From Rhodospirillales bacterium (lineage in GTDB: Bacteria > Pseudomonadota > Alphaproteobacteria > Rhodospirillales > JAPHRK01), in assembly GCA_026196105.1 (NCBI GenBank), contig JAPHRK010000005.1:1-64000 (forward strand): DNA of 64,000 nt, read 5' to 3'. Both the position numbers and the translations under genes were made by a program. The notes beneath the pieces were generated by a model, which had not been told where the DNA came from, did no database searches, and saw nothing but the letters and a program-made list of their open reading frames with translations. Every line of letters begins with the position of its first letter. The stretch's first letter is position 1. Shown here piece after piece: positions 57,907 through 64,000 of this stretch.

Positions 57907-59142
57907 TTATTTGCAGGGAAAGAGCACAGAAAATGTACTTCCTTCCCCAACGTTACTCTCAATATTTAGGGCTCCGCGATGGCGGTTTACGATGTGCTTT
58001 ACAATTGCAAGACCGAGCCCAGTTCCGCCTAAATTCCTAGAGCGTGCCTTATCAACACGATAAAATCTTTCAGTTAATCGGACTAAGTGATCTGGAGTGA
58101 TCCCCTCGCCCTTGTCTTCCACAGATACCTGAATGCCCCCACCCATATGGTCAGGAATTTTTTCAATAGCTTTTGCTGTGATGGTTACTGGGGTGCCCTT
58201 TTCACCATAGTTAAGAGCATTGGCAATGAGATTGGTGAAAACTTGGGTGACTTCGTCGTTATCTCCAATGATTGTCGATAAGTTTTGGGGAATATGGATC
58301 GAAAAGGACATTTCTTTTTGAGCGGCTTTTCTGTCTAAAGTTTCTACAACGCCTTCAATAACACTTTCCAGGTCAACCTTTTCATTAGGCCTGACATGTT
58401 CGTTGACTTCGATTTTAGAAAGGGAGAGTAAATCTTCAATTAGGCGAGTCATTCGACCTGCTTCAGCCGACATGATGTTTAGAAACCGCTCTTGGGCTTC
58501 AGTGTCTTGGCTGGCTTCCCCTTGCAGGGTTTCGATAAAGCCAACCAGGGCCGATAAAGGGGTGCGGAGTTCATGGCTGACATTTGCAACAAAATCGGCA
58601 CGTAAATTTTCAGCGACTTTTACGATGGTGAGGTCATGAAGGGTAAGCAGAGCATTGCCAATTTTCCCTTTGATGTCCCCGACAGGGACGACATTAACTA
58701 AATAGGTGCGCTCAACTTTACCCGGCAGGACGGCTTCAAAAGAAGCTTCCGTCCCAGCGCTTAGTGTATCAGAAACTGCGCTTAGAATTTCAGGATGACG
58801 AATGGCATAACCTAAATCTCTTGTTTCTGTTGCTTCGCCAAACTCTTCCCGAGCGGCTTTGTTGGCAATTTTAACTTTCCGGCTACCGTCTAAGAGCAAA
58901 ACAGGTAGGGGAATGCTTTCTAAAAGATGATTGTCTAGATTAGGGGCAGGTTTGTTTTTCTCAGTTTTTTCTTGAGGTTTTAGTCGTTTGGTCTCTTGGC
59001 CAAGCCAAAGTCCACCAACTAAAAACCCCAAACCAACCATAGTGGCTGGTCCAGGGTCGAGAAGACCTGAAAAGGTAAAAGCTACCAGAACAAAAAAACC
59101 CGGCATCAGGGCGATTAATATAATTCTTTTATTACCGCCCAT
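57907..59142 (-). CDS. PhoR-like sensor histidine kinase
   Basis: 411 residues. Two N-terminal transmembrane helices (about 7-26 and 33-48), a PAS domain (71-175; IPLPVLLLDGSRKVKIANKAA), HisKA with His190 in VSHELRTPLSALVGFIETL, and HATPase_c (NLIANALNYGEKGTPV, VEDKGEGITPDHL, GTGLGLAIVKHIVNRH). This is the PhoR plan for phosphate sensing, but phoB and the pst-phoU genes are not adjacent. It starts 12 bp after the isomerase gene, as the last gene of the nad operon. Confidence 0.88.
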   Translation of the reverse strand: MGGNKRIILIALMPGFFVLVAFTFSGLLDPGPATMVGLGFLVGGLWLGQETKRLKPQEKTEKNKPAPNLDNHLLESIPLPVLLLDGSRKVKIANKAAREEFGEATETRDLGYAIRHPEILSAVSDTLSAGTEASFEAVLPGKVERTYLVNVVPVGDIKGKIGNALLTLHDLTIVKVAENLRADFVANVSHELRTPLSALVGFIETLQGEASQDTEAQERFLNIMSAEAGRMTRLIEDLLSLSKIEVNEHVRPNEKVDLESVIEGVVETLDRKAAQKEMSFSIHIPQNLSTIIGDNDEVTQVFTNLIANALNYGEKGTPVTITAKAIEKIPDHMGGGIQVSVEDKGEGITPDHLVRLTERFYRVDKARSRNLGGTGLGLAIVKHIVNRHRGALNIESNVGEGSTFSVLFPCK

Positions 59143-62459: not shown

Positions 62460-63485
62460 TTAACCCCGACCAACCGCAAGCATGTTGTCGAGGGCCTTTT
62501 TAGCCTCAACTGCAACGGCCTCATCAACGGTCACTTCCACTGTCATGTTGGTGAGCGAGTCGATAATTTTAGGCATGGTGATAAGCTGCATGTGGGGGCA
62601 AAGGCTGCAAGAGCGAATGAATTTGGTTTCAGGATTTCCAGCCACCAGGTTATCACTCATGGAACATTCCGTAATCAGGGCCACTTGCTCTGGTTTGTTC
62701 TCGGTAACAAAATTTGCCATACCAGAAGTAGAGCCAGAGAAATCAGCTTTTTGCAGAACTTCCGGAGGGCATTCTGGGTGAGCTAAAACCGTCACTGCCG
62801 GATAAGAACGCCGAAGGTCATCAACCTGTTTGGCGGAGAACTTCTCGTGTACTTCACAGCGACCGGGGAAAGTAATGATTTCTACTTCGGTTTCAGCCGC
62901 AACGTTTTGAGCCAGGAACTCATCAGGAAACAGCATAACCCGGTCAGCCCCGAGGGACTCAACGACCTGTTTGGCATTTGCTGAGGTGCAAGTGACATCA
63001 GATACTGCTTTAACATCTGCCGATGTGTTGACGTAAGTCACCACAGGCACGCCAGGATAAAGAGCCCGCATCTTGATGATATCTTCAGCCGTGATGGATT
63101 CAGCTAAAGAACAACCTGCTTGCGGGTCAGGGATCAAAACCGTTTTTGACGGGTTCAAGATTTTGGTGGTTTCCGCCATGAAGTGAACGCCCGCCAGCAC
63201 GATGACGTCAGCATCTACTTCTGTTGCCCTTTGAGCCAGTGCGAGCGAGTCGCCAACAATGTCAGACACACAGTGGAAGATATCCCGGGTCTGATAGTTG
63301 TGGGCGAGGATAATCGCGTTGCGCTCTTTTTTAAGCCGCTCGATCTCGTCCACATATGGGGCTAAATGAACCCACTCTTCGTCGCTAAACACATTTTTCA
63401 CCCGGTCATAGATCGGGGCGGTGCGCTCGGCAATCTCGGACGTATAGTCCGGATTTGCTTGAACGGCTTGAGGCATGGCAATCAT
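62460..63485 (-). CDS. nadA: NadA, quinolinate synthase
   Basis: 341 residues, ATG 63485 with AAGGGAA upstream. [4Fe-4S] enzyme condensing iminoaspartate and dihydroxyacetone phosphate. IILAHNYQTRDIF, AGVHFMAETTKILNP, PQAGCSLAESI, TYVNTSADVKAVSDVTCTSANA (in parts), HPECPPEVL and SCSLCPHMQLITM are canonical, with the three cluster-binding cysteine positions present. First gene of nadA-nadB-nadC. Confidence 0.96.
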   Translation of the reverse strand: MIAMPQAVQANPDYTSEIAERTAPIYDRVKNVFSDEEWVHLAPYVDEIERLKKERNAIILAHNYQTRDIFHCVSDIVGDSLALAQRATEVDADVIVLAGVHFMAETTKILNPSKTVLIPDPQAGCSLAESITAEDIIKMRALYPGVPVVTYVNTSADVKAVSDVTCTSANAKQVVESLGADRVMLFPDEFLAQNVAAETEVEIITFPGRCEVHEKFSAKQVDDLRRSYPAVTVLAHPECPPEVLQKADFSGSTSGMANFVTENKPEQVALITECSMSDNLVAGNPETKFIRSCSLCPHMQLITMPKIIDSLTNMTVEVTVDEAVAVEAKKALDNMLAVGRG

Positions 63486-63511
63486 TTAAATTCCCTTATG
63501 CTCAAAACGAG

Positions 63512-63540
63512 CATATATTATCCCAAAAATTTAGGCACAA
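63512..63540 (-). promoter_or_regulatory. Candidate nadA promoter
   Basis: On the minus strand, TTGTGC (63535-63540) and TATATG (63512-63517) are separated by 17 bp, about 27 bp before the nadA ATG. The -35 lies among three TAGGC-type boxes (63532-63570). Confidence 0.4.
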
Positions 63541-63570
63541 AGCGCCTACGCAAGTAAGATAGGTAGGCAC
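63532..63570. repeat. Three TAGGC-type boxes before nadA
   Basis: TAGGCAC (63532-63538), the inverted GCGCCTA (63542-63548) and a further TAGGCAC (63564-63570) form a small cluster: the first two make an inverted pair, the third repeats the first. They overlap the candidate -35 and would suit a repressor of the nad operon. Confidence 0.35.
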
Positions 63571-63739
63571 TCGATGAGAGTCAAGAAATTCAAGGTTTTT
63601 CTAATATTCCGTCCTCTGTTGTTGAATTTGCATTTATGAATAGCGATTTTCCAAAACTGGGTTTTGAAAGGTTGGTATATTTCCTCCACAAGCTATAGTG
63701 ATTTAGTACTATGTAACCTTGGTTGTCTGAGAAGGTGAG

Positions 63740-64000
63740 ATGAGTTTTCCATTTGAAAATGCTTCAAACGAAGAGAAGGTAGCTAAGATTAAGGCTATTG
63801 GTTCGACTCATCCTAACAATCTGATGGCCCGGCATTTTAGGGCTGATTATTTTGGCTTTCGTGATGAATCCCAACAGAATAGATTGTGGCAAATTATCCG
63901 AACAGGGGTAGAGAACCCGGATAGTCAGATGGGGGCTTATGCTCAGAATAGCTGTGACTATGCAGAGTTTGAGCCATTATTTGAGCCGATGATCCGTGAT
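63740..64000 (+). CDS. ATP:guanido phosphotransferase (arginine kinase-like), partial
   Basis: Open from ATG 63740, with GAAGGTGAG upstream, to the window edge (87 codons). The text HPNNLMARHF and, especially, TGVENPDSQMGAYAQNSCDY followed by FEPLFEPMIRD matches the N-terminal domain of arginine/creatine kinases (pattern G-x-E/D-NPDS-x-V/M-G-x-YA...Y..F.PLF.P.I.D). The catalytic C-terminal domain is outside the window. Such kinases store ATP as phosphoarginine and are rare in bacteria. The N-terminus is short (about 20 residues before HPNN). Confidence 0.75.
   Translation, partial: MSFPFENASNEEKVAKIKAIGSTHPNNLMARHFRADYFGFRDESQQNRLWQIIRTGVENPDSQMGAYAQNSCDYAEFEPLFEPMIRD

Follow-up and report, generated by a model that had tools for sequence, protein, structure and literature searches.

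A probable arginine kinase gene between nadQ and nadA in a Rhodospirillales bacterium

Arginine kinase is an invertebrate enzyme that stores the energy of ATP as phosphoarginine, and phosphoarginine buffering is textbook physiology of invertebrates and protists. An ORF lying divergently beside the NAD operon of an alphaproteobacterium, and truncated by the edge of the sequence in which it was seen, raised the questions of whether it encodes a complete enzyme of this kind, what the product might phosphorylate and how the gene came to occupy its site. We analysed the whole stretch of 64,000 nt (the window; G000:C22:1-64000), derived from a genome of 3.9 Mb in 82 contigs, and followed the ORF into the remainder of the contig, which extends to 75,784. 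It appears very probable that the gene encodes an arginine kinase, most likely serving as a phosphagen buffer and probably gained by transfer between nadQ and nadA. Coordinates are collected in Table 1.

Table 1. Features of the kinase locus (contig positions; numbering within locus L002 where given)
Feature	Position	Strand	Basis or remark
Kinase gene, complete ORF	63740..64852 (L002 1741-2853)	+	370 aa; TAA stop
Kinase gene, 5' part	63740..64000	+	87 codons within the window; residues 1-87, N-terminal domain and guanidino-specificity loop; PF02807
Catalytic domain ATP-gua_Ptrans	64184..64849	+	PF00217, E 1.3e-49
Possible sigma-70-like kinase promoter, TTGGTA-16-TATAGT	63672..63699	+	40 bp before ATG; consensus scan
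nadA (quinolinate synthase), first gene of divergent nadABC operon	62460..63485	-	NCBIfam equivalogs NadA, NadB, NadC
Possible nadA promoter, TTGACT-17-TATCTT	63556..63584 (L002 1585-1557)	-	Consensus scan
Palindrome TTATGCTCAAAACGAGCATAT, predicted NadQ operator	63496..63516	.	Sequence; beside nadA start, 224 bp from kinase start
NadQ-like regulator gene	L002 4035-5015		
PhoR/PnpS-like phosphate sensor histidine kinase gene	57907..59142		Both models score below cut-offs

Domain content, predicted fold and active site

The ORF begins with an ATG preceded by AAGGTGAG and remains open to the window edge. The fragment within the window matched the Pfam domain ATP-gua_PtransN (PF02807; E 6.9e-11; score 42.9 bits, cut-off 25.7) as well as 23 PDB arginine-kinase sequences (E <= 0.01), which places the match well beyond chance. 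The motifs NPDS and PLFxPxIxD, from which the first-pass annotation had recognized the N-terminal domain of a guanido kinase, were borne out at residues 59-62 and 79-87 (the latter reading PLFEPMIRD). That annotation saw only the N-terminal half and pointed downstream for the rest; there the C-terminal phosphotransferase domain was present and whole, and the catalytic cysteine and ATP-binding arginines to be sought with it were found as C282, R239, R291 and R323. Both domains lie in a single 370-aa chain, each scoring above its curated cut-off (38.6 bits for PF02807 and 168.8 bits for PF00217). These matches support the predicted product as a full-length phosphagen kinase with arginine-kinase signature residues.

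The predicted structure displayed the two-domain phosphagen-kinase fold. An AlphaFold2 model built on 38 aligned sequences reached pLDDT 92.9 and pTM 0.90 (with seven sequences the model was poor, pLDDT 61). A Foldseek search of the PDB returned Paramecium tetraurelia AK3 (7ews) as the top match (E 1.5e-38, TM 0.87, 39 % identity) and a transition-state Limulus arginine kinase as the second, with TM 0.85-0.87 for the best arginine-kinase matches.

Residues were mapped by alignment to Limulus arginine kinase across a set of 37 bacterial relatives that includes the window protein. The equivalents of Limulus S63, Y68, R124, R126, R129, H185, E225, R229, C271, N274, R280, H284, R309, E314 and H315 were each kept in 37/37 sequences. 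Limulus S63, Y68, E225, C271, E314 and H315 correspond to S62, Y67, E235, C282, E328 and H329 of the window kinase, where C282 is the active-site cysteine in CPTNLG and E235 and E328 form the guanidinium-orienting glutamate pair. R124, R126, R229, R280 and R309, the established ATP-phosphate-binding arginines of the Limulus enzyme, correspond to R125, R127, R239, R291 and R323. Substrate-contact roles have been described for Limulus E225, E314, C271, S63, V65 and Y68 (PMC11075012). Catalytic competence of the window kinase is strongly indicated and specificity for L-arginine is likely.

The enzyme would be an ATP:L-arginine N-phosphotransferase (EC 2.7.3.3) of the single-domain-pair type. Free L-arginine would be held by the N-domain specificity loop (S62-Q-M-G-A-Y67) with its guanidinium oriented by E235, E328 and C282, the ATP phosphates would be held by R125, R127, R239, R291 and R323, and phosphate would be transferred reversibly to give phosphoarginine. 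By analogy, the product would most likely act as a soluble phosphagen buffer that works on its own and replenishes ATP in energy dips or stress; nothing in the neighbourhood of the gene pointed to energy buffering. To go by the title of a 2012 paper by Bragg et al. (cited in PMC6429109), a Myxococcus xanthus homologue is reportedly required for fruiting-body formation.

A phosphagen kinase acting on another small guanidine (agmatine, glycocyamine, taurocyamine or similar) instead of L-arginine is an unlikely reading, although the specificity loop gives it some footing. The position of Limulus V65 is M in 37/37 sequences and the neighbouring G64 position is mostly Q or S, so that substrate preference could be shifted, and substrate changes through this loop are known among phosphagen kinases. 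The loop is nevertheless of full length, with no deletion. In this it resembles arginine kinases and differs from taurocyamine kinase, whose sequence in the same alignment has gaps in the loop and no Y68. The equivalents of S63, Y68, E225, E314 and H315 are likewise kept as in arginine kinases, and the closest solved structure is an arginine kinase.

Far less probable still is an McsB-like protein-arginine kinase that tags proteins for degradation. McsB of Bacillota has the catalytic domain, active-site cysteine and glutamates in common with the window kinase, and McsB models were the only NCBIfam matches, via this common domain, but their scores lay far under the cut-offs (101 vs 385 and 90 vs 500 bits). 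The window kinase possesses the PF02807 N-domain and small-molecule loop, where McsB has no aligned residues; McsB genes sit with mcsA/ctsR/clpC, in an operon with mcsA and clpC, whereas the window kinase has no such neighbours, its genome has no CtsR and no neighbour common to the clade hints at such a system. A tree further placed McsB in another clade, split from the window kinase with support of 100/100. McsB function was rejected on the basis of the sub-cut-off scores, the specificity loop and the absence of CtsR from the genome.

The nadQ-nadA site

Relatives of the gene are mainly found in uncultured metagenome bins, yet a binning artefact or eukaryotic contamination can be given next to no credence, as the gene lies inside a 75.8-kb contig with core genes on both sides (nadABC and the nadQ-like regulator), has no introns, is preceded by a bacterial ribosome-binding site, is typical in GC and has 64-74 % orthologues in independent bins with differing neighbours. 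The first-pass annotation correctly described the kinase as divergent from nadA at a distance of 254 bp and named nadA, nadB and nadC correctly, all three being NCBIfam equivalogs. Its description of the surroundings as ordinary core DNA holds for the flanks; the kinase itself, however, stands at an insertion point, because in six relatives of the same order (L059-L062, L064 and L065) nadQ immediately precedes nadA, in the same direction and across a short gap without a kinase. In the window genome, the kinase gene and an HI0933-like flavoprotein gene, which are convergent with a 4-bp overlap, stand between nadA and nadQ. The site offers a clean before/after comparison for one kinase gain.

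We named the regulator NadQ and not NrtR because its NrtR match is confined to the DNA-binding domain, as for NadQ in PMC5343134. The palindrome beside nadA matches the NadQ operator consensus ttATRCTCannntGAGYATaa of the same paper and is conserved in relatives, and the string CTTGACTCTCA at the nadA promoter-like site also occurs upstream of nadA in L064. Since nadA has retained both the operator and the promoter-like site, the edge of the insertion is probably to be placed somewhere from about 63585 to 63740. The kinase gene was typical of the window in both GC and third-position GC, suggesting that the gain was not very recent or that the donor genome was similar. The gene probably entered this site by transfer inside a scattered bacterial pool of such genes.

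Several further features of the region were noted. In several relatives, but not evidently in the window genome, a second TTATGCTCAAA half-site lies upstream of nadA. NadQ control of the kinase was considered and appears unlikely: the single operator sits next to nadA, with 224 bp separating it from the kinase ATG, although the divergent genes share this region. The kinase promoter candidate is weak, because the sigma-70-like consensus scan of the region found four sites against 2.3 expected. The PhoR/PnpS-like sensor gene listed in Table 1 is situated near the NAD operon.

Distribution and tree position

The window genome is the sole representative of its genus and family in the genome set searched. 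Within the order, 8/297 genomes had a match, comprising the window genome, six at 64-74 % identity and one with a divergent homologue. In a class-wide sample of 385 genomes the sole match besides the window was divergent, whilst a phylum sample yielded two further matches at 55-56 % from a class in which 2/78 genomes matched; one of these two proteins was identical to that of a Mariprofundus-labelled bin (L041). A scan of contigs from named genomes gave no match with the single protein and 39 loci with an alignment of the order-level relatives, a list that overlaps partly with the genomes of the order-level count. The full-length proteins among these loci were 53-74 % identical, and the loci fell in Rhodospirillales, Hyphomicrobiales and Rhodobacterales bins as well as bins labelled Polyangiaceae, Cocleimonas and Mariprofundus. 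Altogether, about 40 uncultured genomes contained relatives at 53-74 % identity. Most of these genomes were alphaproteobacterial, and a few were bins labelled Zetaproteobacteria, Gammaproteobacteria or Myxococcota, labels that are subject to the usual binning uncertainty. In a check for a viral origin, the searched viral contigs contained no relative of the kinase, and matches in phage records were only partial and McsB-like.

Flanking genes differed between groups across the clade. No operon partner was common to all members, and synteny was local to close kin, for example some Rhodobacterales. Repeated transfer or relocation of the kinase gene fits these patterns best; differential loss could also account for the patchy occurrence.

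A tree of animal and bacterial kinases, as the first-pass annotation had proposed, was built with McsB as the outgroup. The 37 bacterial kinases and Paramecium AK3 formed one clade (100/98), and the animal and trypanosome arginine/taurocyamine kinases a separate group (99/97). With three long-branch bacterial sequences removed, the clade of bacteria and AK3 had support of 97/84 and the bacteria alone 88/63. The alternative in which AK3 groups with the animal enzymes was not rejected (p-AU 0.257), so an affinity of the bacterial clade to ciliate rather than animal enzymes is favoured by these trees, not settled. The annotation's background view, that scattered bacterial cases came from transfer, was supported in that the locus shows evidence of acquisition; as a refinement, the bacterial clade does not branch from within the animal kinases.

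Besides joining the bacterial clade in both trees, AK3 was the best single-domain sequence match (255 bits) and has the C-terminal signature DISPSAR-GVTE in common with the window kinase. It differs in being eukaryotic, in its long branch and in having S at the Limulus Y68 position, where the bacterial clade has Y. The animal and trypanosome arginine kinases (Limulus 1bg0/1rl9, shrimp 4bg4, Daphnia 6ky2 and T. cruzi 2j1q) resemble the window kinase in two-domain architecture, catalytic and main arginine-contact residues and fold (TM about 0.80-0.86; 32-35 % identity), but form their own clade and carry NEEDH and DISNKRRLG where the window kinase has GEEDH and DISPSARLG. That an old mobile, mainly alphaproteobacterial phosphagen-kinase lineage was the source of ciliate arginine kinases is a tentative and rather doubtful proposal; if true, the usual 'bacteria borrowed from eukaryotes' direction would be reversed for the ciliate branch.

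Bacterial arginine kinases were already known from a handful of scattered cases, including PE36 and Sulfurovum, none of those reviewed being alphaproteobacterial (PMC6429109). The window kinase adds to these a broad alphaproteobacteria-centred clade, its favoured affinity to ciliate enzymes and one insertion site whose alternative state is seen in relatives; the lineage-wide bacterial clade and the ciliate rather than animal affinity are the less expected elements. No paper on this clade was found in the literature, which, as few subscription papers were covered, is weak evidence of absence. A clade of some 40 genomes with fully conserved active sites suggests that, within parts of the Alphaproteobacteria and in some other bacteria, the use of phosphagens recurs as an accessory trait, and the ciliate rather than animal affinity makes the question of origin testable.

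Other bacterial phosphagen kinases were encountered during the searches. Genome G508, a small-genome alphaproteobacterium (1.3 Mb, 100 % complete), encodes a very divergent phosphagen kinase (L012:1495-2640, minus strand); the Y68 position is S and the R229 position T in this protein, and its activity or substrate may therefore differ. A second, distantly related type was present in genome G238 of the same order as the window genome (L011:1465-2553, minus strand); it groups with a sea-anemone arginine kinase (98/76), which suggests an independent transfer. Lastly, a full phosphagen kinase is encoded on a plasmid of Candidatus Bandiella woodruffii (Rickettsiales), which lives as a symbiont of the ciliate Euplotes (L054:3824-4921; NZ_CP110821.1 55143-56240). 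The gene is annotated as 'hypothetical protein' and located near IS5 and IS6 transposase genes, and its product scores nearer to the arginine kinases of animals than to Paramecium AK3.
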